This document shows, one piece after another, positions 17,546 through 57,536 of a DNA stretch of 64,000 nt (position 1 is the first letter of the stretch; every line of letters begins with the position of its first letter). The DNA lies in the NCBI GenBank assembly GCA_944384125.1, contig CALWSF010000017.1, positions 1 to 64,000 of the forward strand. The letters are read 5' to 3'. Origin of the DNA: an uncultured Lachnospiraceae bacterium (GTDB lineage Bacteria > Bacillota > Clostridia > Lachnospirales > Lachnospiraceae). A model generated the notes under the pieces. That model worked only from the letters and a program-made list of their open reading frames with translations. It was not told the origin of the DNA and did no database searches. Made by a program: the position numbers and the translations under genes.

Positions 17546-17631
17546 AGCGTATTCAGGGGCTGTTTTTCCATGATAAAAATATATGCTGTTTTTTTGAGTG
17601 TATCTCAATGAAAGTTTGTTAATTATTTTGC

Positions 17632-31879: not shown

Positions 31880-31908
31880 TTGACGAAATCGAGATTTCAT
31901 AATAAAAT
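31880..31908 (+). promoter_or_regulatory. Orphan promoter in the aroF-MATE gap
   Basis: TTGACG (31880-31885), 17-base spacer, TAAAAT (31903-31908). No open reading frame follows before the terminator at 32158-32199. Confidence 0.6.
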
Positions 31909-31914
31909 AATGTA

Positions 31915-32199
31915 TATCAAAAAAATTTAAAAATTTTTTTGATCAACGTGCAATAAAATGCATACGCAGTGCATTAACTTATTGAACGGATGAAAATCAT
32001 TTCTGTTCGGAAGTCCGATGACGGAGAACTAACATAACAAAAAATCAAGTTACTCGAAATTCCTTGATGCATTACACTCCGTTACGAATCCGCCTTCGGT
32101 TACTTCACGACAGAATCACTTCGGTGTATGGTAAACAACCAGTACCTGACGCCGAATAAAAAAACACCGGACTGAATTATCAGTGGCGGTGTTTTTTTA
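31915..32199 (+). ncRNA. Candidate non-coding transcript, unclassified
   Basis: About 285 bases between a good promoter and a strong terminator, without a credible ORF. Hairpin potential includes a long A/T palindrome at 31916-31943, TGCA..TGCA near 31960-31974, GAAC..GTTC near 31984-32008 and ATCAAG..CTTGAT near 32043-32068. It does not match 6S, SRP, tmRNA or RNase P RNA by eye. It could also be a decayed element. Confidence 0.35.
32158..32199 (+). terminator. Terminator upstream of the MATE gene
   Basis: Stem AAAACACCG (32161-32169) with CGGTGTTTT (32187-32195), then further T residues. Confidence 0.85.
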
Positions 32200-32283
32200 T
32201 GCTGTAAAAAAGCAAAGAGTTTTCTGTCATGTTAAAGATACATCCGGGGATATATCCTGTGGCCAAGAGCCGTTTTTTCATGA

Positions 32284-32330
32284 TTAAAATATATATTGAC
32301 TTTTTTTATGAAAAAGGTTATAAAGGGACT
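32284..32330 (+). promoter_or_regulatory. Promoter/operator element A of the MATE gene (shared with the ABC operon)
   Basis: TTGACT (32296-32301), 17-base spacer, TATAAA (32319-32324). The spacer holds a T-run/ATG/A-run near-palindrome. The whole 46-base block is almost identical to 39389-39433, with both hexamers and flanks conserved. Confidence 0.75.
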
Positions 32331-32385: not shown

Positions 32386-33750
32386 ATGAAAATAGAGAAT
32401 GATCTGGGACGGGATGATATCCGGCGTCTGGTGCTTCGTCTGGCCATTCCGTCCATGCTGGCGCAGCTTGTGAATGTTCTTTACAGTGTAGTGGACAGAA
32501 TTTACATAGGAAATATTCCGGTAATCGGCGAGACAGCTCTGGCAGGCGTGGGGGTAAGCGGCCCGATTGTGACAATGATTTCTGCTTTTGCCTATCTGGT
32601 GGGGATTGGCGGATCGCCTCTTATGAGCATCCGGATGGGCCAGAAAAATATGGAAGAAGCGAAAAAGATACTTGCCAACAGTTTTTTAATGCTGATAGCA
32701 ATTTCAGCGGTTATTACAGTATTTCTTCTGTCAACAAAGCGCTGGATTCTGATGCAGTTTGGAGCGAGTGAAGCGATTCTTCCTTATGCGGAACAGTATT
32801 TTTCAATTTATGTGACAGGCACCATATTTGCGCTTTTGTCGGTCGGCATGAACCAGTTTATAATCTGTCAGGGGTTTGCCAGAATTGGAATGATTTCGGT
32901 GGCGCTGGGGGCTGTTATCAATATTGTACTTGATCCGGTATTTATATTTCTGCTGAATATGGGAGTGTCGGGAGCTGCACTGGCAACTGTCCTGTCGCAG
33001 CTGGCATCCTGCCTGTTTGTTCTGATTTTCCTGATGGGAAAACAGGTTCCGGTGCGTCTCAGCTTTGGAGGATATGATATCAGGCTGATGCGCCGTATTA
33101 CTGTGATGGGGCTTTCTCCATTTCTTATCATTGCTTTTGACAATGTACTGCTTATTGCATTGAATACGGCAATACAGCGGTGGGGAGGAACAGAAGCAGA
33201 TACTCTTCTTACCTGTACTGCCATAGTTCAGAGTTTTATGCTGATTGTAACGATGCCTCTTGGAGGTATTACTTCGGGAACCGGAGCGATCCTTGGCTAT
33301 AATTTCGGAGCAAGACGGCCGGATCGCATACGAAGTGCCCAGAAATACATTGTACTTCTGGCGCTGGCATTCAATTCGTTTATGTTCCTGATATCAAGAA
33401 CAGCAGCCAAATATTTTGTATTCCTCTTTACCCGCAATGAAGCATATGTAAGTCTGACAGTATGGGCCATCGGAATATATACGCTGGGAATTATTCCTCT
33501 CGCTGTACAGTATGCGATAGTAGACGGGTATACGGGAATGGGTGTGCCGTCATTAGCCGTTTTTCTGTCCATGTTCAGAAAAACGCTGTTTTTGGGAAGC
33601 GTATTTGTCATCCCCCATTTTTTGGGAATTGAGAATGTATTTTTATCGGAGGCCATTTCCGATTTTGGGGGAACCGCACTTTCAGTTGTGGTTTATCTGC
33701 TTACTATCAGGAAAATCCTCAGACGATGTGAGAATGAGCCGGAATTATAA
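32386..33750 (+). CDS. MATE family efflux transporter
   Basis: 454 residues from ATG 32386, preceded by GGGGAGAGAAGG. The frame runs upstream to 32296, but that extension covers the promoter. About twelve membrane segments in two similar halves are visible. The N-terminal block IPSMLAQLVNVLYSVVDRIYIG is a clear MATE signature, as is the later GYNFGARRPDRI loop near residue 306. It exports an organic compound using Na+ or H+. Its promoter nearly duplicates that of the chelate-type ABC transporter operon seven kilobases away, suggesting coregulation and possibly a shared metabolite. Confidence 0.92.
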   Translation: MKIENDLGRDDIRRLVLRLAIPSMLAQLVNVLYSVVDRIYIGNIPVIGETALAGVGVSGPIVTMISAFAYLVGIGGSPLMSIRMGQKNMEEAKKILANSFLMLIAISAVITVFLLSTKRWILMQFGASEAILPYAEQYFSIYVTGTIFALLSVGMNQFIICQGFARIGMISVALGAVINIVLDPVFIFLLNMGVSGAALATVLSQLASCLFVLIFLMGKQVPVRLSFGGYDIRLMRRITVMGLSPFLIIAFDNVLLIALNTAIQRWGGTEADTLLTCTAIVQSFMLIVTMPLGGITSGTGAILGYNFGARRPDRIRSAQKYIVLLALAFNSFMFLISRTAAKYFVFLFTRNEAYVSLTVWAIGIYTLGIIPLAVQYAIVDGYTGMGVPSLAVFLSMFRKTLFLGSVFVIPHFLGIENVFLSEAISDFGGTALSVVVYLLTIRKILRRCENEPEL

Positions 33751-33785
33751 AAAACCCGCTGGCCGGAAACGGCCGTCGGGTTTTC
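33750..33785. terminator. Terminator between the convergent MATE and TAXI genes
   Basis: Stem AAAACCCG-CTGGCCG, GAAA loop, CGGCCGT-CGGGTTTT; it reaches the stop codon of the - strand gene. Confidence 0.87.
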
Positions 33786-34809
33786 AGTCTGACTTGGGAA
33801 ATGAAATTCCGGTATCTTCATAATACTGTTTTGCTCCGGGGTGGAGAGGAACAGGTATATCACTGTACATGAACTCTCTGTCATTGAGGGAACACATGGA
33901 TTTGTGGGCTTTACTGAGTTCAGGGCGTGCTTCATCCAGAATTCTGGTAATGTTATAAACCAGTTCTTCATCCATGGAAATATCAACGCACAAAAGACAT
34001 TTAATACCGAAGGTTTCCACATCTTCTTTCTGTCCGGGGTATGTGCCGGATGGGATAACAGTTCTGTAGTAGAAAGGGTTGGCTGAGAGAATTTCATCCA
34101 GCTCTTTTTCTGTGTATTTCAGAAGGCGGCATGGAGTTGACTGTGCAAGTTCTGTCAGACCGCTTATGGGAACACCGGCAAAGCCATGAATGGCCTCCAG
34201 TTTTCCGCTTTTCACTTCTTCGCCTCCTGAACCTAAGCCAAAGTTAACAAGCTGTACATCTCCCTCATCTATTCCGACAGCCAGGAGTGACATGCGGGCT
34301 GCAAGATCGGAGGCCGAGTTCTGTGGGCCCACAGCGGCGCGGTGTCCTTTGAGATCATGGACATAAGTAAGTCCTGTGGAGACGGGAGACATCCAGTTGG
34401 AGATACTGGAGTATATAGCGGCAACGGCCCGGAGATTTTTCTGCGGGTTTCCATTAAACTCTTCCGTGCCTGAAAAGGCAGCTCCAGCCACATCGGCACT
34501 GATCAGTGCCATGTCAAACTGTCCCTCCGAAATTCCCCTGACGTTGGCGGGAGAGCCATTGGAGGCGCTTACGTTTACTTCCAGGTCGGCTTCACGGGAG
34601 CTGATAAGCTCCGCAAGAGCACTTCCCACCGGGTACATGGTTCCTCCGCTGTCAGCGGTTCCGATGGTCAGGACGCGCAGAGGGGTTTCTGTCTTCTGGC
34701 CGTTATCGGACGCCTGCCCCGTTTGAGGAGATCCCGAACAGGCAGAGAGGACAGCAGCAAAAATCAGGAATATAAAATAAAGGAGTTTCGGCTTTTTTGT
34801 GTTTTTCAT
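33784..34809 (-). CDS. TAXI family TRAP-type solute-binding lipoprotein
   Basis: 341 residues. Signal peptide with lipobox LSAC (Cys near residue 24) followed by a Ser/Gly/Gln linker. The TAXI fold is shown by LTIGTADSGGTMYPVGSAL near residues 47-65, the SASNGSPANVRGI block near 80-92 and the segment GPQNSASDLAARMSL near 155. TAXI proteins bind carboxylates such as glutamate or 2-oxoglutarate for TRAP transporters. No TRAP membrane subunit lies nearby; the neighbour is GltS, followed upstream by a CitA/CitB-type two-component pair. It may act as a glutamate sensor partner or serve a distant permease. Confidence 0.88.
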   Translation of the reverse strand: MKNTKKPKLLYFIFLIFAAVLSACSGSPQTGQASDNGQKTETPLRVLTIGTADSGGTMYPVGSALAELISSREADLEVNVSASNGSPANVRGISEGQFDMALISADVAGAAFSGTEEFNGNPQKNLRAVAAIYSSISNWMSPVSTGLTYVHDLKGHRAAVGPQNSASDLAARMSLLAVGIDEGDVQLVNFGLGSGGEEVKSGKLEAIHGFAGVPISGLTELAQSTPCRLLKYTEKELDEILSANPFYYRTVIPSGTYPGQKEDVETFGIKCLLCVDISMDEELVYNITRILDEARPELSKAHKSMCSLNDREFMYSDIPVPLHPGAKQYYEDTGISFPKSD

Positions 34810-35012: not shown

Positions 35013-36263
35013 TTATGCGATCAGGCTTCCGAAAATAGAAAGGAAGATGGGATTGTAAATATCGTCAATAATAACGGCAAAGGACGGATAAAGAACCCAT
35101 GCAATGTTGTGCCAGCCATACTCATCCATAACAGCTTTTTCATTGGCAACGGCATTGGGACCTGAACCGCAGCCCCATCCGCAGTTTCCGGCGGCCATAA
35201 CGGCAGCGCCGTAATCGCGTCCGAACATGTTGTAGGAGATGAAAATCGCAAACAGTGCCATGAGGATTGCCTGTGAGAGGAGAATAATTCCCATCTGTCC
35301 GGCAACGGGAGCCAGCTTGGTAATGTCGATGGTCATCAGCACGAGAGCCAGGTAGAGTTCAAGGAACATATGCTCAATTGCATCAACTTCCGGTACGTAG
35401 AATTTAATGTTGCAGGCTTCCATGACATTTCTTGCAATTGCTCCTGCGAAGAGGCAGCCGATGAATTTGGGCATCTCAATCATAGGAATGTTGTCAAGAA
35501 TGCAGTAGATCGGCATTCCCAGCGCAGCAATCAGAAGGGTCATGGCAAACATGGAAATCATTCTTCCATTGTTAAGCAGCGGCTTCTCGTCAAGGGAAGC
35601 GGTTTCCGGTTTGTCATTGGGGTCTGCTTTCAGGCCGTGGTGTGCAATAAGAAATGCAGCTACAGGACCGCCGATCAGAGAACCCATGATATTTCCCATG
35701 GTTCCGGCTGCAACGCCAATGGTGGTAGCGTCCTGGGCACCCATTTTTTCAAAAATGGAGCCGAATGCAGAAGCCGTTCCAACGCCGCCGGACATGGAAG
35801 CAGAAGAACACTGAAGGGCAAGGAGCGGATGAAGACCAATCAGGTTTCCAATGAAGACGCCCATCAGATCCTGCAGTGTGATCAGAAGGCAGGCTGCAAT
35901 GGCAATGTAAATGCAGAGCTTGCCTCCGGCACGTTTGAGCATTTTAAAACTGAATCCGAATCCTACACAGAGGAAGAACAGGTTCTGACAGAGATCCTGC
36001 ATGACTGTTGAATCAAATGAAAAGCCGATAACGCCGGCTCCCTTAATGATAGATACAATAATGGAAAAAATAATGCCTGATACGACGGGAGCCGGTATGG
36101 CATACTTCTGAAGAAGCCGGGAATGTCCTACAATGGCCCGTCCGAGGAAAATTACGATGGCTGCAAAGCCAAGTGTGGTCAGGTATTCGAACTTAAACGT
36201 GGCAACTGCCCCATCAGCTGCCGGAGTATATGTACCGAAATACCCCATGATTGTCTCTAACAT
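35013..36263 (-). CDS. gltS: Sodium/glutamate symporter, GltS family
   Basis: 416 residues, about 10-12 membrane segments. The family hallmarks are the repeated re-entrant loops: MSGGVGTASAFG near residue 155 and the glycine-rich GNCGWGCGSGPNAVANE block near 365. The ATG has GGAGGG nine bases upstream, and that site can pair with a complementary stretch in the leader. Imports glutamate with Na+. It lies downstream of a citrate/malate-type sensor kinase and regulator on the same strand, so those probably control it. Confidence 0.92.
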   Translation of the reverse strand: MLETIMGYFGTYTPAADGAVATFKFEYLTTLGFAAIVIFLGRAIVGHSRLLQKYAIPAPVVSGIIFSIIVSIIKGAGVIGFSFDSTVMQDLCQNLFFLCVGFGFSFKMLKRAGGKLCIYIAIAACLLITLQDLMGVFIGNLIGLHPLLALQCSSASMSGGVGTASAFGSIFEKMGAQDATTIGVAAGTMGNIMGSLIGGPVAAFLIAHHGLKADPNDKPETASLDEKPLLNNGRMISMFAMTLLIAALGMPIYCILDNIPMIEMPKFIGCLFAGAIARNVMEACNIKFYVPEVDAIEHMFLELYLALVLMTIDITKLAPVAGQMGIILLSQAILMALFAIFISYNMFGRDYGAAVMAAGNCGWGCGSGPNAVANEKAVMDEYGWHNIAWVLYPSFAVIIDDIYNPIFLSIFGSLIA

Positions 36264-36271
36264 AGAAACGC

Positions 36272-36358
36272 ACCCTCCATTCTTATTTTGTGATTCTGAA
36301 TTTAATAAAATTTACAGAATCCTTATGTTTGTAAATATTTTATAAAAAATGGAGGGTA
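36272..36358 (-). promoter_or_regulatory. gltS leader with nested inverted repeats sequestering the Shine-Dalgarno
   Basis: Outer arms ACCCTCCATT (36272-36281) and AATGGAGGGT (36349-36358) are perfect complements; the copy nearest gltS contains its ribosome binding site. Nested inside, GATTCTG (36292-36298) pairs with CAGAATC (36315-36321). The fold would hide the ribosome binding site; as DNA the inner repeat could be a regulator site. Confidence 0.55.
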
Positions 36359-36402
36359 AACGCTAGTTTTTGTAATTATGAAACATGCTTTAGTAAGTAT
36401 TG

Positions 36403-37101
36403 TTACCTGCTGTTTCGTTTGTGGGAGGCACACTGATATTTAATGGAAGGACGCCCGCCTGTCTGATAATCAACGGCTGTGATAAGCTCTCCGGTCTCAA
36501 CCATATAATTAAGGTAACGGCGGATGGTAATGCGTGAAAGATGGACCTGTTCGGCAACCTGCTCACTGGACCAGGCGGAATCACGGTGCTCTTTGAGAAA
36601 ACGGCGGACGAGTTCCAGTGTTGTCTCGTTGAGGCCCTTTGTCAGGTGCGGAGAGGCGGAGGGAAGGCCGCCCGGGGTAAGAAGCCGGTCGATTTCTCCC
36701 TGATCCATGCCGGAACCGACGCGGTTCAGGTTTTCCTGAAGCCTTGCAAAGCGTTCAAGTGCCGAGCGAAAACGTTCGTATTCAAATGGTTTAACAAGGT
36801 AATCCACAACGCCGCGTGACAGGAGCTGACGGACTGTGTCAGTATCGTTGGCGGAGGTAACCATGATGACAGAGGGAGTCAGACCGGATGCATGGAGCCG
36901 ATCAATAAATTCTGCTCCGTTCATCAGCGGTGTATAGTAGTCAAGTATAATAAGATCGGTGCTTTTTGTTTTCAGAAATTCCAGTGCAGGGATGCCGCTT
37001 CTGAAAATCCCGGCCACATGGAAAGAGGGAGTAAGCTCCACGTACTGGCGGTTTATGGCCGCTACCATTGGATCGTCTTCAATAATGATGACCTGATACA
37101 T
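36403..37101 (-). CDS. Response regulator, CitB/DcuR (CitT) family
   Basis: 232 residues. Receiver domain about 1-120 with IIIEDDPMV acidic pocket, phospho-acceptor Asp near 54 (LIILDYYTPLMNG), conserved Thr/Ser and Lys104 (YLVKPFEYERF). The C-terminus (about 160-220) is a helix-turn-helix typical of citrate/malate-type regulators (SRITIRRYLNYMVETGEL). Its start overlaps the kinase stop by one base (TAATG), so translation is coupled. The probable target is gltS immediately downstream. Confidence 0.92.
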   Translation of the reverse strand: MYQVIIIEDDPMVAAINRQYVELTPSFHVAGIFRSGIPALEFLKTKSTDLIILDYYTPLMNGAEFIDRLHASGLTPSVIMVTSANDTDTVRQLLSRGVVDYLVKPFEYERFRSALERFARLQENLNRVGSGMDQGEIDRLLTPGGLPSASPHLTKGLNETTLELVRRFLKEHRDSAWSSEQVAEQVHLSRITIRRYLNYMVETGELITAVDYQTGGRPSIKYQCASHKRNSR

Positions 37102-38765
37102 TATGATATCTCCTTTCTCGTGAAGGTAAGAGTAAAGCAGCTTCCCTCATCCGGTTCTGTATCAATAGTTATATCTCCATGATAATCTCCGGCGATACGC
37201 TGGAGAAGGAACAGGCCGGTTCCCCGGTTTTTTCCTTTGGAGGAAACCCCTTTTTCAAATATATGTTCGAGGAGCTCCGGCCGGATACCTCTGCCGGTGT
37301 CTTCACAGATTATAATATTTACGTCCGGCCGGCAATAGAGGCTGAGGCGTATTTCTTTCGTGTCTTTTTGGCATTCAGCCAGTTCTTCAATGGCATTTTC
37401 CACAAGATTACCGATGATAGTTATATATGTATCGACCGGGAGCAGGAGATCTCTCTCAAAGCAGGAGCTGTCGGGGGCGACAGTCATCTGTATGCCCAGT
37501 TCAGCAGCGTGCATCATTTTGCCGATGACAAGGGCACAGAGACGGGATACACGGATACAGTTCGCAGCTTCACGGACCGACTGGCTGGTTACAAGACTGC
37601 TGTTTGTAATAAAATCAATAGCTTTCTGAATTTCTCCCGTATGAAGATAACCAAGGATAATATGAAGTTTGTTGAGAAATTCGTGATTGAAAGCCCGGAG
37701 GGTATCCAGCATATTATGTGCTCCGGAGAGTTCATCAGAGAGCTGCAGCATTTCTGTTCGATCAGCCAGGATTACAATTATGCCGCGGATAGAATGGCCG
37801 GACTGACCATGAATGGGTACCTCACTGATGAGAAGCGTTCTTCCGTTTATTTCAACAGTTCGGGGCGGACTGCTCTCTCCGGAGGCCAGGATCCGGAGAA
37901 GCTGTGTCTGAGGATAAACATCGGAAAGCGTACAGCCGCTTATAGAATGGTTTTCTGTGGACAGAAACTGTTTCGCGGTGCGGTTTGCAAACAGAATCTG
38001 GCCATTTCGATCCGTGGCGACCAGGCCTTCTGACAGAGAATTCATTACTTCAGCCTGTCTGGTATACAGAGCGGCCAGTTCTTCCGGATTAAAACCGAGA
38101 AGAGAGCGGCGCAGATAGGCAATAAAAGTGTGGGTCAGAGAGATACTTACCATCATCATGATGAGAAAAATAAATGCGTGCAGCAGAAAAATATATTTGT
38201 GGCGGGCTGTGATGGCAGAATTGAAAATAGAGACCATCACAAAACCGATAATTTCATTGCTTTCATTTCTGACGGCATGAAAGGCCCGACGCTGTGTGCC
38301 AAATGTTCCGTAGCCTGTAGTAATATAGGGAGCGCTGCCGCTCAGAATATCCGTCTCGTCTCCGTCTACAAAGGTTTCTCCTGTTTTAAGGCGGTCTGTG
38401 TGATAGAAACGCAGACCGTTTGTATCATAGATGACAACAACATTTATGTCAGGAATATTGGAGGAAAGAGAGTCAAGATCCAGTTTGACATTGGCGTCAG
38501 GATATCCGTTTTCCAGCATTTGTATTACTTCAGGCATGGAGGCAATATACGAAGCTGTGCCGCTGATGATTTTATCTGTGTTTTTGCGCTCCCTTGAAAT
38601 ATCAAAATAAAGAGTAATGCCCAGGGAGCACAGGGTAATCAGTGCACACAGGAGGAGAAAGGTGCGATATAGTGCCTGCTCCAGTGTCTGCTTTTTGTAT
38701 ACTTTTCGTGCCAGAAATTTTTTTATGCGAATTTTTATTTTTCTGAGGAGTTTTCTTTTGGCCAT
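37101..38765 (-). CDS. Sensor histidine kinase, CitA/DcuS family
   Basis: 554 residues. Membrane segment at about 33-55, an extracytoplasmic PAS/Cache-like sensor about 56-185, second membrane segment about 192-215, cytosolic PAS about 232-330, then the Spo0B-like phosphoacceptor region (FNHEFLNKLHIILGYL, His near 370) and an HATPase domain with NLVENAIEEL near 445 and CEDTGRGI. Family members sense di- and tricarboxylates; glutamate or a related carboxylate is plausible here given the linked gltS and TAXI genes. Promoter at 38816-38844. Confidence 0.92.
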   Translation of the reverse strand: MAKRKLLRKIKIRIKKFLARKVYKKQTLEQALYRTFLLLCALITLCSLGITLYFDISRERKNTDKIISGTASYIASMPEVIQMLENGYPDANVKLDLDSLSSNIPDINVVVIYDTNGLRFYHTDRLKTGETFVDGDETDILSGSAPYITTGYGTFGTQRRAFHAVRNESNEIIGFVMVSIFNSAITARHKYIFLLHAFIFLIMMMVSISLTHTFIAYLRRSLLGFNPEELAALYTRQAEVMNSLSEGLVATDRNGQILFANRTAKQFLSTENHSISGCTLSDVYPQTQLLRILASGESSPPRTVEINGRTLLISEVPIHGQSGHSIRGIIVILADRTEMLQLSDELSGAHNMLDTLRAFNHEFLNKLHIILGYLHTGEIQKAIDFITNSSLVTSQSVREAANCIRVSRLCALVIGKMMHAAELGIQMTVAPDSSCFERDLLLPVDTYITIIGNLVENAIEELAECQKDTKEIRLSLYCRPDVNIIICEDTGRGIRPELLEHIFEKGVSSKGKNRGTGLFLLQRIAGDYHGDITIDTEPDEGSCFTLTFTRKEIS

Positions 38766-38878: not shown

Positions 38879-39028
38879 ATGCCATCAAAGAAAAAGACGA
38901 AAACAGTTACTTCCGGTGAATTTCTGGAAATCGCGAAGCAGCGAACCGGTCAGTTCGCAAAGCAGGTGTTTGAAAATATGGAATGGGACAGATTGCAGCT
39001 GGATTCTCATATAAGGCTGCCCGGATAG
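38879..39028 (+). CDS. Small basic protein, 49 residues, unknown
   Basis: ATG at 38879 with GAGGGAG five bases upstream, divergent from the kinase gene. The N-terminus is MPSKKKTKTVTSGEF and the protein ends RLPG. No family recognised. A second frame (38983-39168) overlaps its end and continues with a basic, helix-prone sequence, so this could be a frameshifted longer gene. The following 370 bases to the ABC operon promoter hold no other recognised gene. Confidence 0.4.
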   Translation: MPSKKKTKTVTSGEFLEIAKQRTGQFAKQVFENMEWDRLQLDSHIRLPG

Positions 39029-39388
39029 TTCTGGAAAGAAAACACATGCCTGTTCGCAAAAAAGTACAGAAATCGGGGAACCACATAATCAAGCAAAAAA
39101 ATCCTCGGGAAAAGAACTGGGCTCTAAAAAATGAATGTGCCGCCGGCCGTAGCCGGAGGAAAGTTTAAAAGATATTGATATTATATGTAAAATCCTGTTT
39201 TTTACGGAAGCGTTCTTGCTTGAGAGGCATAGGCAATGCGCTGGGGCAAAAGTAAGTTGACAAAGAGAGATTGGGAGCATTAAGATGCTGTTCTGCATCA
39301 GAGAGATATATCAGTTTCAGGGATAATAGTAACATACAGGATGAAATTTTTGTGACATAAAAATAAAATGTATAATATTTTTTTTTGA

Positions 39389-39433
39389 CTAAAATATATA
39401 TTGACTTTTTTCATGAAAAAAGGTATAAAGGGA
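39389..39433 (+). promoter_or_regulatory. Promoter/operator element B of the ABC transporter operon
   Basis: TTGACT (39401-39406), 17-base spacer, TATAAA (39424-39429). The spacer region contains the perfect palindrome TTTTTTCATGAAAAAA (39405-39420). A second TTGACT lies 16 bases upstream (39385-39390). Nearly identical to 32284-32330. Confidence 0.77.
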
Positions 39434-39531
39434 CTGGATTTATTTTTTTTTCGTGAATTTAAAATGGAAGAGAGACCGGAGTCAGAGTCGGAAAGATAAT
39501 GTACTTCATATATAGACAAAATATATTGAAA

Positions 39532-39601: not shown

Positions 39602-40723
39602 ATGAGAAAGTCAGTTGTTGCTTTAATGTTGGTGTTGACCATGTCAGTCACAGCCACAGCCTGCGGAGGTCAGCAGACAGAACAGGAAACTGTGGAGGGA
39701 ACTGTACAGGAGACTGCAAAAGAAGTGTCAGAAGAAACGGAATCGACTACACGTACCTATGTTGATATGGATGGTACGGAAGTTCAGCTTCCGGAAAAAA
39801 TCAACACTGTTGTGGATGTGTGGGCTGCGAATAATCAGGTTTTGGTTCTGCTGGGAGTTTCAGATCGTTTAGTTGGTACGATTTCAACTGCGAAAGATGT
39901 TGAATTTATGCAAAAGCTGAATCCTGGGATAACGGAGCTTCCTTCCCTGATTGAAGGAGAAGAAATCAATGCGGAGGAAATGCTGAAAGTTAATCCTGAT
40001 GTTATTATCGTAAATGACAGAGGAGTGGAAGCTGCGCGTTCAACCGGGATTCCCACAGTAAACCTCCATTTTTCAGATTTTGAGAGTCTGAAAGAGATGG
40101 TTCTTAAGACTGCGGAAGTATTTGGGGAAGATGCCGTAATGGACAAGGCGAAAGCCTTTAATGACTATTTTGACAGTAATCGTAAAATGATTGCGGATAT
40201 TGCTGCAAAAATACCTGATGAAGAGGTAAAAAAAGTTTATTATGCGCGAAATGACAGCGGTTCAATGTTAAAAACAGACGGTGCCAATACGATGGCAAGC
40301 GAGTGGATGGAGACCATTGGATGTGAAAATATTGCTTCTTCCATAGATGGATTTAATCAGGAAATAAGTTTTGAGCAGATTTTGAAAGAAAATCCGGACG
40401 TAATTATACTTATGGATGTTGATGGAGCAGCTGAGATTCGTGATGAAATTCTTAGTGATCCGAATTGGCAGAGTGTTACGGCTGTGCAAAATGGTGAAAT
40501 TTATTTGAATCCTTCAGGTGTATTTTATTGGGATCGATACAGTACTGAGGAGGCAATGCAGATCCTGTGGGCGGCGGTTACAGTTTATCCGGAGTATTTT
40601 AAGGATATTGATATCGTGGAAGAAACAAAGAATTTCTATGACACATTTTTCGGATACCAGCTTTCTGACGAAGAGGTAAATCAGATTCTCAATACAGAAG
40701 AAAATACTAATATAGTACAGTAA
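39602..40723 (+). CDS. ABC transporter substrate-binding lipoprotein (iron-chelate/cobalamin type)
   Basis: 373 residues; ATG after AGGAGG. Signal peptide with a cysteine near residue 21 (TATACGG) and an acidic Glu/Thr linker. The mature protein has the class III periplasmic-binding fold of FepB/BtuF: an opening VDMDGTEVQLPEKI strand, NPDVIIV near residue 137, and the closing GVFYWDRYSTEEAMQ helix near 305. The ligand is a metal chelate or corrinoid-like compound; the sequence does not say which. First gene of a four-gene operon. Confidence 0.9.
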   Translation: MRKSVVALMLVLTMSVTATACGGQQTEQETVEGTVQETAKEVSEETESTTRTYVDMDGTEVQLPEKINTVVDVWAANNQVLVLLGVSDRLVGTISTAKDVEFMQKLNPGITELPSLIEGEEINAEEMLKVNPDVIIVNDRGVEAARSTGIPTVNLHFSDFESLKEMVLKTAEVFGEDAVMDKAKAFNDYFDSNRKMIADIAAKIPDEEVKKVYYARNDSGSMLKTDGANTMASEWMETIGCENIASSIDGFNQEISFEQILKENPDVIILMDVDGAAEIRDEILSDPNWQSVTAVQNGEIYLNPSGVFYWDRYSTEEAMQILWAAVTVYPEYFKDIDIVEETKNFYDTFFGYQLSDEEVNQILNTEENTNIVQ

Positions 40724-40745: not shown

Positions 40746-41759
40746 GTGCCGCGCAATTCAAAAAAGACCAGAGTGATATGGATATGTTTTTTCATTTATA
40801 TCATAGTATTTTTTATATCTATCGGAATAGGCCGGTATTACGTTTCCATAGAGGATATTTTCAAAATTCTTGTTTCCTCTGTTTTGCCCATTAATCAGAC
40901 GTGGGATCCTGCGATGGAACGAGTGGTCCTGTACATACGTCCCTCGCGCCTGTTTGTGGGTTCTCTGGTTGGAGCTTCGCTTGGTCTTGCGGGAGCTACT
41001 TTTCAGGGACTTTTTAAAAACCCGCTTGTATCTCCGGATATTCTGGGTGTATCTTCCGGAGCTGGTTTCGGCGCTGCGGCTGCGATATTACTGGGAGCAG
41101 GAGCTGTAGGAATACAGCTCTCTGCCCTGCTGTTTGGCTTGCTTGCGGTTGCGGCTGTTTATTTAATATACAAAGCGTTTAGAAGCCCTAATATTTTAAT
41201 GTTAGCTTTAGCGGGCATAATTGTAAATGGTTTCTTTTCTTCTGCCCTGTCGCTGACGAAATATATGGCTGATCCTAATGATACATTGCCGGCTATAACT
41301 TTCTGGCTTATGGGAAGTCTGGCAGCAGCGGACTATGATGATCTTATGTTTATGATAATTCCGATTCTGGCTGGCTCTTTTGGAATAATCTTTCTGCGGT
41401 GGAAGATAAATGTTCTGTCTCTTGGCGATTCTGAGGCAAAGGCGCTTGGTGTGAATGTTAACAGACTGCGGTTTCTGCTTGTTTTGTTTGCGACTGTTAT
41501 AACAGCTGTGTCGGTGTGTGTGAGCGGAACAATTGGCTGGATAGGTCTTGTAGTTCCCCATCTTGCGAGAGCGTGTACGGGGGACAATCACAGTCGTCTG
41601 CTTCCTTTTTCCTGTATTTTAGGTGCGTTGCTGCTGATAATTCTGGATGACATATCCCGGAGCCTGACCGGAGCGGAAATTCCGCTGGGTATTTTGACTG
41701 GTATTGTTGGAACGCCTGTGTTTGCACTGCTTCTTATAAGGCAGAAGAGGATATTATGA
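40746..41759 (+). CDS. ABC transporter permease, FecCD family
   Basis: 337 residues with about nine or ten membrane segments; GTG start after AAGAGG. Family motifs: RPSRLFVGSLVGASLGLAGA near residue 58, FQGLFKNPLVSPDILGVSSGAGFGAA near 83-107 (including the NPLxxPDxLG block), and IGWIGLVVPHLAR near 260, the ATPase-contact region. It forms the membrane channel for the upstream lipoprotein. Its stop overlaps the ATPase start by four bases. Confidence 0.93.
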   Translation: MPRNSKKTRVIWICFFIYIIVFFISIGIGRYYVSIEDIFKILVSSVLPINQTWDPAMERVVLYIRPSRLFVGSLVGASLGLAGATFQGLFKNPLVSPDILGVSSGAGFGAAAAILLGAGAVGIQLSALLFGLLAVAAVYLIYKAFRSPNILMLALAGIIVNGFFSSALSLTKYMADPNDTLPAITFWLMGSLAAADYDDLMFMIIPILAGSFGIIFLRWKINVLSLGDSEAKALGVNVNRLRFLLVLFATVITAVSVCVSGTIGWIGLVVPHLARACTGDNHSRLLPFSCILGALLLIILDDISRSLTGAEIPLGILTGIVGTPVFALLLIRQKRIL

Positions 41760-42535
41760 TAACATATACAGCTGATAATATTTCATTTGCATATCCAAAA
41801 GGGAAATTAGTCCTTAAAGATATTAATATGTCAGTATCAAAGGGCACAGTTTTCACGATACTGGGAACAAATGGCACCGGAAAAAGTACACTGCTTAACT
41901 GTATAGCGGGACAGCTGACTCCTTTATCGGGGAATGTATCGATAGGCGGGAAATCTGTTAAGGATATGACTGTAACGGAGTTTTCGCGTCATGTGGCATA
42001 TGTTGGCCAGATGCATTATCCTGTATTTGCGTATACAGTGCGTGAAGTTGTTGTAATGGGGCGGACTCCTTATCTTGGAATGACCGGTTCTCCCAGGAAA
42101 TCTGATTATGAAATAGCGGATGACATGATGGATCTGCTCAAGATTTCCCAGCTTGCCGAAAAATCATACTTAGAGATAAGCGGCGGGGAGCGCCAGCTTG
42201 TTATGCTGGCTCAGGCTTTGGCTCAGACTCCGGATTTCCTTGTGCTGGACGAGCCGACAAGCCATTTGGATTTTGGAAATCAGATTCGTCTTCTGGATAT
42301 AATTCAGAATGTAGCCTCAGAAGGGTATGGCGTAATACTGACATCACATTTTCCTGATCATTCACTGATGTTTGATCACACGGTAGGAATACTGCATAAT
42401 GGAAGTTTTATTAGTGTGGGACCTGCAAAAGAAGTAATAACAGAGCAGAACATGCAGGATATATATAAAATTCAGGTCAGTGTCAGTTATAATGATATAT
42501 TGATGCGAAAAACTTGTCTGCCAAAAGGAAAATAA
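41756..42535 (+). CDS. ABC transporter ATP-binding protein (FepC/BtuD type)
   Basis: 259 residues; ATGA overlap with the permease. Walker A GTNGTGKST near residue 38, Q-loop in VGQMHYPV, signature LEISGGERQL near 139, Walker B FLVLDEPTSHLD near 161 and a switch His (TSHFPDH) are all intact, so the transporter should be functional. Confidence 0.94.
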   Translation: MITYTADNISFAYPKGKLVLKDINMSVSKGTVFTILGTNGTGKSTLLNCIAGQLTPLSGNVSIGGKSVKDMTVTEFSRHVAYVGQMHYPVFAYTVREVVVMGRTPYLGMTGSPRKSDYEIADDMMDLLKISQLAEKSYLEISGGERQLVMLAQALAQTPDFLVLDEPTSHLDFGNQIRLLDIIQNVASEGYGVILTSHFPDHSLMFDHTVGILHNGSFISVGPAKEVITEQNMQDIYKIQVSVSYNDILMRKTCLPKGK

Positions 42536-42538
42536 ATA

Positions 42539-43090
42539 ATGTCTGCGTTTATTGTCAGTGTGGGAGGCCCTTCATCCTCCGGGAAAACAACATTCTGCTA
42601 CAATTTATCAAAGAAATTTGCGGAGTTCAAAGTCAAAGTGATTTCGCTTGACAATTACCGTACAGAAAATATCGGGAAAGCAGTCTCTCCTACATCCGGA
42701 GTTGAATATACAGATTGGAGCAATCCTGAATATATTGATATAGATAAGGTAATGGCGTGTATCCGGGATGAAAGTGAAAAGGCGGATCTGATATTTGTTG
42801 AGGGGCTGTGCTCCCTGTATTTTCATGATATACGTGAAGTGTCGAATCTCCGAATATATTTGGATGCATCAGCAGAAAGTCGTATTTTCCGGCGGATAAT
42901 GAGAAACACTCGCAGGGATGGGAGCAGCGTGAAGTCAGTCGGCGAGTATCATCTGGACTCAGCCCGGTTTTCTGAGAAAAAATATGTGGAAAATACAAAA
43001 GTGTTTTCTGATCTTGTTCTTGATGGGGAATTTATAACAGATAGAGGTATGAGTGTCATTTATTTATATATACATAATGCAATTATGTGA
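42539..43090 (+). CDS. Uridine kinase-like P-loop kinase in the ABC operon
   Basis: 183 residues starting three bases after the ATPase. P-loop GGPSSSGKT at residues 9-17, a DNYR acceptor-binding motif near 39 as in uridine kinase/phosphoribulokinase proteins, the acidic VEGL strand near 86, and an arginine-rich lid (RRIMRNTRRDG) near 118-128. Family members phosphorylate nucleosides or similar hydroxyl compounds. Linkage to a chelate-type importer suggests it phosphorylates the imported molecule or a breakdown product. No known metal or B12 enzyme was recognised here, so the substrate is open. Confidence 0.8.
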   Translation: MSAFIVSVGGPSSSGKTTFCYNLSKKFAEFKVKVISLDNYRTENIGKAVSPTSGVEYTDWSNPEYIDIDKVMACIRDESEKADLIFVEGLCSLYFHDIREVSNLRIYLDASAESRIFRRIMRNTRRDGSSVKSVGEYHLDSARFSEKKYVENTKVFSDLVLDGEFITDRGMSVIYLYIHNAIM

Positions 43091-43205
43091 TTTCTGAATC
43101 AACAGGAAAGAATGCAGGAAGAGCATGAGAAAACTCCGGGGACGGAAAGCATGAATAGTATTTTTGTTTTCCGTGAAATAATATTTGTAAATTTAAAAAA
43201 AACCC

Positions 43206-43234
43206 TTGCTATTTTGGAGGGAATTGGTTACAAT
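43206..43234 (+). promoter_or_regulatory. Promoter of gap
   Basis: TTGCTA (43206-43211), 17-base spacer, TACAAT (43229-43234). Confidence 0.7.
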
Positions 43235-43299
43235 ACAGGGTAGGTTGATTAATATTTAACAATCATGCACTTTAGAAAATTTCTAGGAGGAATGAAATC

Positions 43300-57371: not shown

Positions 57372-57536
57372 TTATTCCTCTACCGGAGAAAAATCCTCTT
57401 TGCCGACTCCGCAGATGGGACAAACCCAGTCAGCGGGAAGATCCTCAAAAGATGTTCCCGGAGCAATTCCGTTGTCGGGATCGCCAATCTCGGGATCATA
57501 TATATAGCCGCAGGGATCACAAACGTATTTTTTCAT
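57372..57536 (-). CDS. Rubredoxin
   Basis: 54 residues; AGGAGG seven bases before the ATG. The four iron ligands are in CDPCGY (residues 6-11) and CPICG (near 39-43), spaced as in clostridial rubredoxins, and the core aromatics Tyr4, Tyr11, Tyr13 and Trp37 are present. Small cytosolic electron carrier used in oxygen and peroxide detoxification by anaerobes. Monocistronic with its own promoter. Confidence 0.96.

Follow-up and report, generated by a model that had tools for sequence, protein, structure and literature searches.

Gene content and gene order of the locus

We analysed a stretch of 64,000 nucleotides from an uncultured Lachnospiraceae genome (contig CALWSF010000017.1 of assembly GCA_944384125.1, positions 1 to 64,000 of the forward strand; hereafter referred to as the window), in which a gene for a MATE family efflux transporter and a four-gene ABC importer operon are each preceded by a copy of the same promoter-like element (copies A and B, respectively; Table 1). 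As described in the original prediction, the two units are seven kilobases apart with a glutamate locus between them; the genes in this interval, on the opposite strand, encode a TAXI-type solute-binding protein, a glutamate symporter and a two-component system. The symporter scored 246.6 against the NCBIfam gltS equivalog, below the cut-off of 310.75. The importer genes form one operon (a 22-base gap and an overlap of 4), and share with importers of the FecBCD/BtuFCD type the combination of a Peripla_BP_2 binding protein, a FecCD permease and an ATPase in a single transcription unit; they differ in that the proteins remain below the equivalog cut-offs shown, and in that the operon continues into a kinase gene, which was not found at other importer loci. 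Between the sensor kinase gene and copy B we also observed an open frame of 49 amino acids (38879-39028, plus strand) with no significant Pfam match (best E 0.13), which may be a remnant.

Table 1 Features of the exporter and importer region (positions in the window)
Feature	Position	Strand	Evidence or remarks
Copy A of the promoter element	32273..32330	+	Precedes the MATE gene; similar promoters at MATE in G303 and G304
-35 hexamer TTGACT, copy A	32296..32301	+	5/6 to TTGACA
Imperfect spacer palindrome CTTTTTTTATGAAAAAGG, copy A	32300..32317	+	Differs from the perfect form at 2 positions
-10 hexamer TATAAA, copy A	32319..32324	+	Spacer 17; 5/6 to TATAAT
MATE family efflux transporter	32386..33750	+	PF01554 E 4e-33; TIGR00797 above cutoff; native to the genus
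TAXI-type solute-binding protein	33784..34809	-	TIGR02122 E 1.3e-75
Sodium/glutamate symporter, GltS family	35013..36263	-	PF03616 E 8.6e-82
Response regulator	36403..37101	-	PF00072 E 5.1e-22
Sensor histidine kinase	37101..38765	-	PF02518 E 9.9e-18; borders GAPDH directly in 5/7 congeners
Copy B of the promoter element	39378..39435	+	Ahead of the importer operon, inside the lineage-specific region
-35 hexamer TTGACT, copy B	39401..39406	+	Sequence
Perfect 18-bp palindrome CTTTTTTCATGAAAAAAG, copy B spacer	39405..39422	+	Longest perfect palindrome in the window
-10 hexamer TATAAA, copy B	39424..39429	+	Sequence
Substrate-binding lipoprotein, chelate-type ABC importer	39602..40723	+	PF01497 E 1.8e-32
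FecCD permease	40746..41759	+	PF01032 E 2e-86
ABC ATPase	41756..42535	+	PF00005 E 3e-31
Small uridine kinase/phosphoribulokinase-like P-loop kinase	42539..43090	+	PF00485 E 1.8e-15
GAPDH promoter region, where congener homology resumes	43177..43299	+	82.6-89.3% identity, 5 congeners; right insert edge 43177-43197, depending on the genome

We further compared the locus with 20 kb from each of seven congeners and with a 12 kb contig from another genus. MATE orthologs were found in all seven congeners (66-82% identity), and in five of them (G302, G222, G304, G303 and G300) the gene order is MATE, TAXI, GltS, response regulator, sensor kinase, GAPDH, PGK and TPI; some of these genes are separated by other DNA, which contains none of the four importer genes. 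The stretches from G301 and G299 held aroF, MATE and TAXI only, the GAPDH junction lying outside them. From the sensor kinase start to GAPDH, the distance is about 250-520 bases in the five congeners, compared with 4.5 kb in the window, and neither the importer genes nor the kinase were detected in any of the eight relative stretches (E 1e-15). On the right, the congener alignments that resume in the GAPDH promoter region continue into GAPDH, while the left edge of the insert (about 3.8-4.4 kb) falls between 38766 and 39377 and cannot be fixed more closely, since conservation is lacking ahead of the sensor kinase. The G+C content of the four operon genes is 0.40-0.45, compared with 0.468 for the window; given that the permease (0.451) equals MATE (0.453), composition is weak evidence for a foreign origin.

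Upstream of the MATE gene, between it and aroF, there is a candidate non-coding RNA gene (31909-32200, plus strand) with a promoter-like TTGACG-17-TAAAAT at 31880 and a terminator-like hairpin. It has a fold z of -7.4, with a double change in 12 of 63 consensus pairs, and was matched in 7/7 congeners (partially in G222 and G300), while a search of 53 other relatives gave no match; a second match in G302 is the opposite strand of its own terminator. No Rfam family matched at its gathering score, the best being AgrB (26.4 of 40 bits). This RNA gene is not always adjacent to MATE, as it lies 8 kb away in G304 and on the far side of aroF in G299 and G301. At the loci of G301 and G299 (L069 and L070), MATE starts 5-6 bases past the aroF stop, as if the two formed one operon; in the window, the candidate RNA gene separates them.

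Two near-identical copies of a promoter-length element

The original prediction placed two near-identical blocks at 32284-32330 and 39389-39433. We found that the first of these matches its partner at an offset of 7105 in 43 of 47 bases, that the second ends at 39435 rather than 39433, and that the likeness runs further upstream in both, so that 32273-32330 and 39378-39435 agree in 52 of 58 bases, ungapped and at the same constant offset. The sequences flanking the two copies are unrelated. Compared without gaps, the two intergenic regions scored 40 (300 dinucleotide shuffles: mean 10.3, maximum 14), and the pair was the top non-self match within the 64 kb window (E 7.6e-15). A search of the genome for further copies, which had been proposed together with the prediction, located the 35-base core (≤3 mismatches) at two places only in the whole assembly (3,438,745 bases or 3.44 Mb, 141 contigs, 94% complete), with none in the reversed control. 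At the same tolerance, a pattern scan of 298 other family genomes gave no occurrence, nor did a slightly looser 32-base pattern in the seven congeners. According to these pattern scans of the assembly, the family genomes and the congeners, on which the uniqueness of the element rests, it is not the widespread plain repeat that had been named as an outcome speaking against a shared regulator.

A third weak match, at 17559-17595, lacks the -35 hexamer and was set aside; it lies ahead of a gene that we take, from its protein sequence, to be proC-like, and its likeness (82% over 39 bases, E 0.023) is to the upstream half of copy A. A site at 57528 covers a start codon.

Both copies contain TTGACT-17-TATAAA, in agreement with the hexamers and 17-base spacer described originally, and match the vegetative (sigma-A) consensus at 10 of 12 positions. 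By hexamers and spacing they are predicted sigma-A type promoters, and both are presumably active. An automatic promoter scan did not list them, since it requires T as the last base of the -10 hexamer. The hexamers lie 62-90 bases upstream of the MATE start codon in copy A and 173-201 bases upstream of the importer operon in copy B, and the operon is also preceded by promoter-like sites at 39257 (10/12) and 39352 (9/12). We considered whether the importer operon has a riboswitch or a structured leader and rejected this, as no Rfam match overlaps the leader and the fold z of its 166 bases is only -1.26.

MATE promoters in related genomes

We then scanned the 600 bases upstream of MATE with a regular-expression promoter pattern at 11 loci (the own locus, seven congeners and three other genera), and found promoter-like sites in four of the seven congeners (G303, G304, G300 and G222). 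No such site was present in this interval in G302, G301 and G299, and the promoter is thus not universal in the genus; G302 is the closest congener by MATE identity, and its MATE follows the terminator of an RNA gene. In G222 the site is 283 bases upstream of MATE, which makes its link to the gene uncertain. One extra promoter-like site further upstream was returned for each of G222 and G303, as was the site of the RNA gene at the own locus. Among the other genera, G016 gave TTGACGAAAGGTGAATTATTTTATATATT, which lacks the palindrome described below, and G015 and G003 gave none.

With a looser promoter pattern, the eight genomes of the genus contained 22 places, compared with 9 in the reversed control. 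Outside this genome, the best of these (1 mismatch) was the promoter at MATE in G303; its counterpart in G304 was also among them (3 mismatches). Moreover, G303 has the run TAAAATATA upstream of its -35 hexamer, in common with the element of this genome. The related promoters at MATE in G303 and G304 suggest that a MATE promoter of this type is older than the insert. Over a 29-base core, copy A agrees with G303 at 22 positions and copy B at 21; as the two are nearly equally like G303, the direction of copying rests on position and not on letters.

Relatives of the importer and of the kinase

The binding protein had no match in 60 other genomes at E 1e-40, its best listed relatives from the 298 family genomes (up to six candidates scored per genome) were about 30% identical, and a search of genome contigs for a donor returned no relatives of it. 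With the permease, the donor search gave 34 loci at 31-52% identity (best 52%); no donor of the operon was found with either the binding protein or the permease. Among plasmids there was one matching record, at 33.7%. When the insert DNA was used as the query, the listed matches in other genomes (two candidates scored per genome) fell in the permease and ATPase genes and did not exceed 189 bases. In the own genome (2 of 38 candidates scored), 32273-32330, the sequence ahead of MATE, ranked second.

The kinase gene was not found at any of 85 importer loci, 51 of which had at least 700 bases beyond the ATPase gene. These loci comprise the 34 permease loci of the donor search (28 with room beyond the ATPase gene), 22 further permease loci (18 with room; up to seven candidates scored per genome) and 29 binding-protein loci (5 with room, most being too short to tell). 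Only 4 of 299 family genomes had a kinase match, one of them the own genome, and no importer gene was located within 1.5 kb on each side of the three homologs in other genomes. No importer protein reached the cut-off of any equivalog model listed (for the ATPase, the top 25 of 193), and hence no importer substrate can be named. No paper came up in a literature search that combined MATE proteins with siderophore export.

Origin of the shared promoter

The two copies are nearly identical, their core occurs at two places only in the assembly (≤3 mismatches), the gene order around MATE is native to the genus, and the operon is absent from the congener stretches. On balance, we think it probable that the genus's own MATE promoter was copied ahead of an importer operon inserted in this lineage, so that the two units would share a vegetative promoter with no need for a dedicated regulator. 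Copy A would be the genus's own sigma-A type promoter of the MATE exporter; an insertion confined to this lineage would have brought the importer operon and its small kinase gene in between GAPDH and the sensor kinase gene; and 58 bases almost the same as the MATE promoter, copied from it, would have come to lie ahead of them. The simplest reading is that copy A gave rise to copy B, whose source could be either within the genome or DNA from a close relative, and we infer that copying rather than convergence produced it. The same vegetative promoter sequence would then start both units, and any control acting on it would be common to the two, presumably as a by-product of copying. Shared transcription of the MATE and importer units is likely, judging from the sequence. 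Of the original proposal, a promoter sequence common to the two units, and with it probably part of their transcription control, finds good support; a specific regulator binding the spacer palindrome does not.

The shared element, from which one regulator had been proposed, includes a T-run/CATG/A-run palindrome in the spacer, which is perfect in copy B (shuffle p 0.0004) and imperfect in copy A, with two mismatches and a weak p of 0.18. A putative protein binding this palindrome could control the exporter together with the importer, with selection keeping the copies alike, and this would fit the 14 of 17 spacer bases common to A and B, the rarity of perfect palindromes of 18 bp or longer (on average 0.15 per 64 kb in 20 Markov sequences) and the separate palindrome, TTTTGGCCAAAA (p 0.0056), at the promoter of MATE in G303. 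The core of the latter, GGCC, is however different, and none was present at the promoter-like sites of G304, G300 and G222; the CATG form therefore occurs in 0/4 congener sites ahead of MATE, the three other congeners having given no site. Genome-wide the palindrome is not enriched (≤2 mismatches; 4 sites vs 6 in the reversed control), and the two sites beyond the A/B pair lie within a gene and over a start codon. Given the imperfect form in copy A, its absence from congener promoters and the lack of enrichment, and as recent copying accounts for the likeness without selection, we regard such a regulator, also one with a lineage-specific operator, as unlikely. The neighbouring response regulator was considered for this role and rejected, since the gltS upstream regions share TTAC-type repeats and not the palindrome, which leaves it no obvious candidate for A and B. 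These repeats were seen by eye at 36264-36402 in the window and in five congeners, and are a possible site of the adjacent response regulator. Distinctly improbable, in our judgement, is a scenario in which the exporter's promoter and operator were copied together to a foreign importer, one putative regulator reading the CATG palindrome and the same small molecule being exported and imported. Likewise, the metallophore export/import cycle suggested in the original prediction is not borne out, as the importer is missing from the congener stretches, no substrate-naming model was reached and the kinase was found at none of the 85 importer loci, 51 of them with room beyond the ATPase gene.

Copying may also have run in the opposite direction: the importer insert would have brought the promoter along, for instance from a close relative, and replacement or conversion would then have made the one at MATE match it. 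The identity fits either direction and the perfect palindrome sits in copy B, but related promoters are already present at MATE in G303 and G304, and the nearest match to the 29-base pattern among the importer-search loci has five mismatches (L157 and L164), which makes this order of events quite doubtful. It is very improbable that the element is a dispersed repeat or the end of a mobile element with no promoter role, or an assembly artefact. Although a 7.1 kb segment is flanked by two direct copies, there are only these two in the assembly, the plasmid collection gave no match and viral contigs no exact pattern match, the hexamers are intact in both A and B, and the insert has conserved genes at both sides; that an assembler went wrong over so short and imperfect a repeat also appears unlikely. 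Finally, both copies can be read as MKK(V/G)IKGL from an ATG at 32308 and 39413, and the frame of copy A continues into MATE, as expected of a coding block, whether for a short leader peptide (MKKVIKGL.../MKKGIKGL...) or for an extended N-terminus of MATE. However, no ribosome-binding site is visible before the ATG in either copy, the counterpart in G303 has no ATG there, and 7/7 congeners retain the start of MATE as MKIENDLG or MKLENDLG; we give a coding role almost no credence.

Relation to known systems and implications

Mobile promoters are found as several dispersed copies or spread between genomes, and no such dispersal was detected here, with two copies in the assembly and none in the 298 other family genomes. 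Like the promoters treated in studies of promoter propagation in prokaryotes (Matus-Garcia et al. 2012 and van Passel et al. 2014, as cited in PMC8049555), the element has the length of a promoter and recurs within a single genome, upstream of genes that are not related; it differs from these in having two copies 7.1 kb apart, one of them at its native site, and in being absent from the other genomes searched. With horizontal regulatory transfer or regulatory switching (Oren et al. 2014, as described in PMC5890482), our case shares the alteration of regulation through gain or replacement of non-coding DNA, whereas here the likely source is the neighbouring promoter of the host and the controlled gene is the newcomer. 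Both parallels, mobile promoters and regulatory switching, are general ones.

The proposed copying of the MATE promoter to the front of the importer operon is neat, if fairly ordinary. If this reading is right, it would provide a clean natural example of an inserted operon that gained a working promoter by copying a nearby host one. It would also show that two promoters can be almost the same without a dedicated regulator in common, a point to bear in mind when regulons are predicted from repeated motifs.
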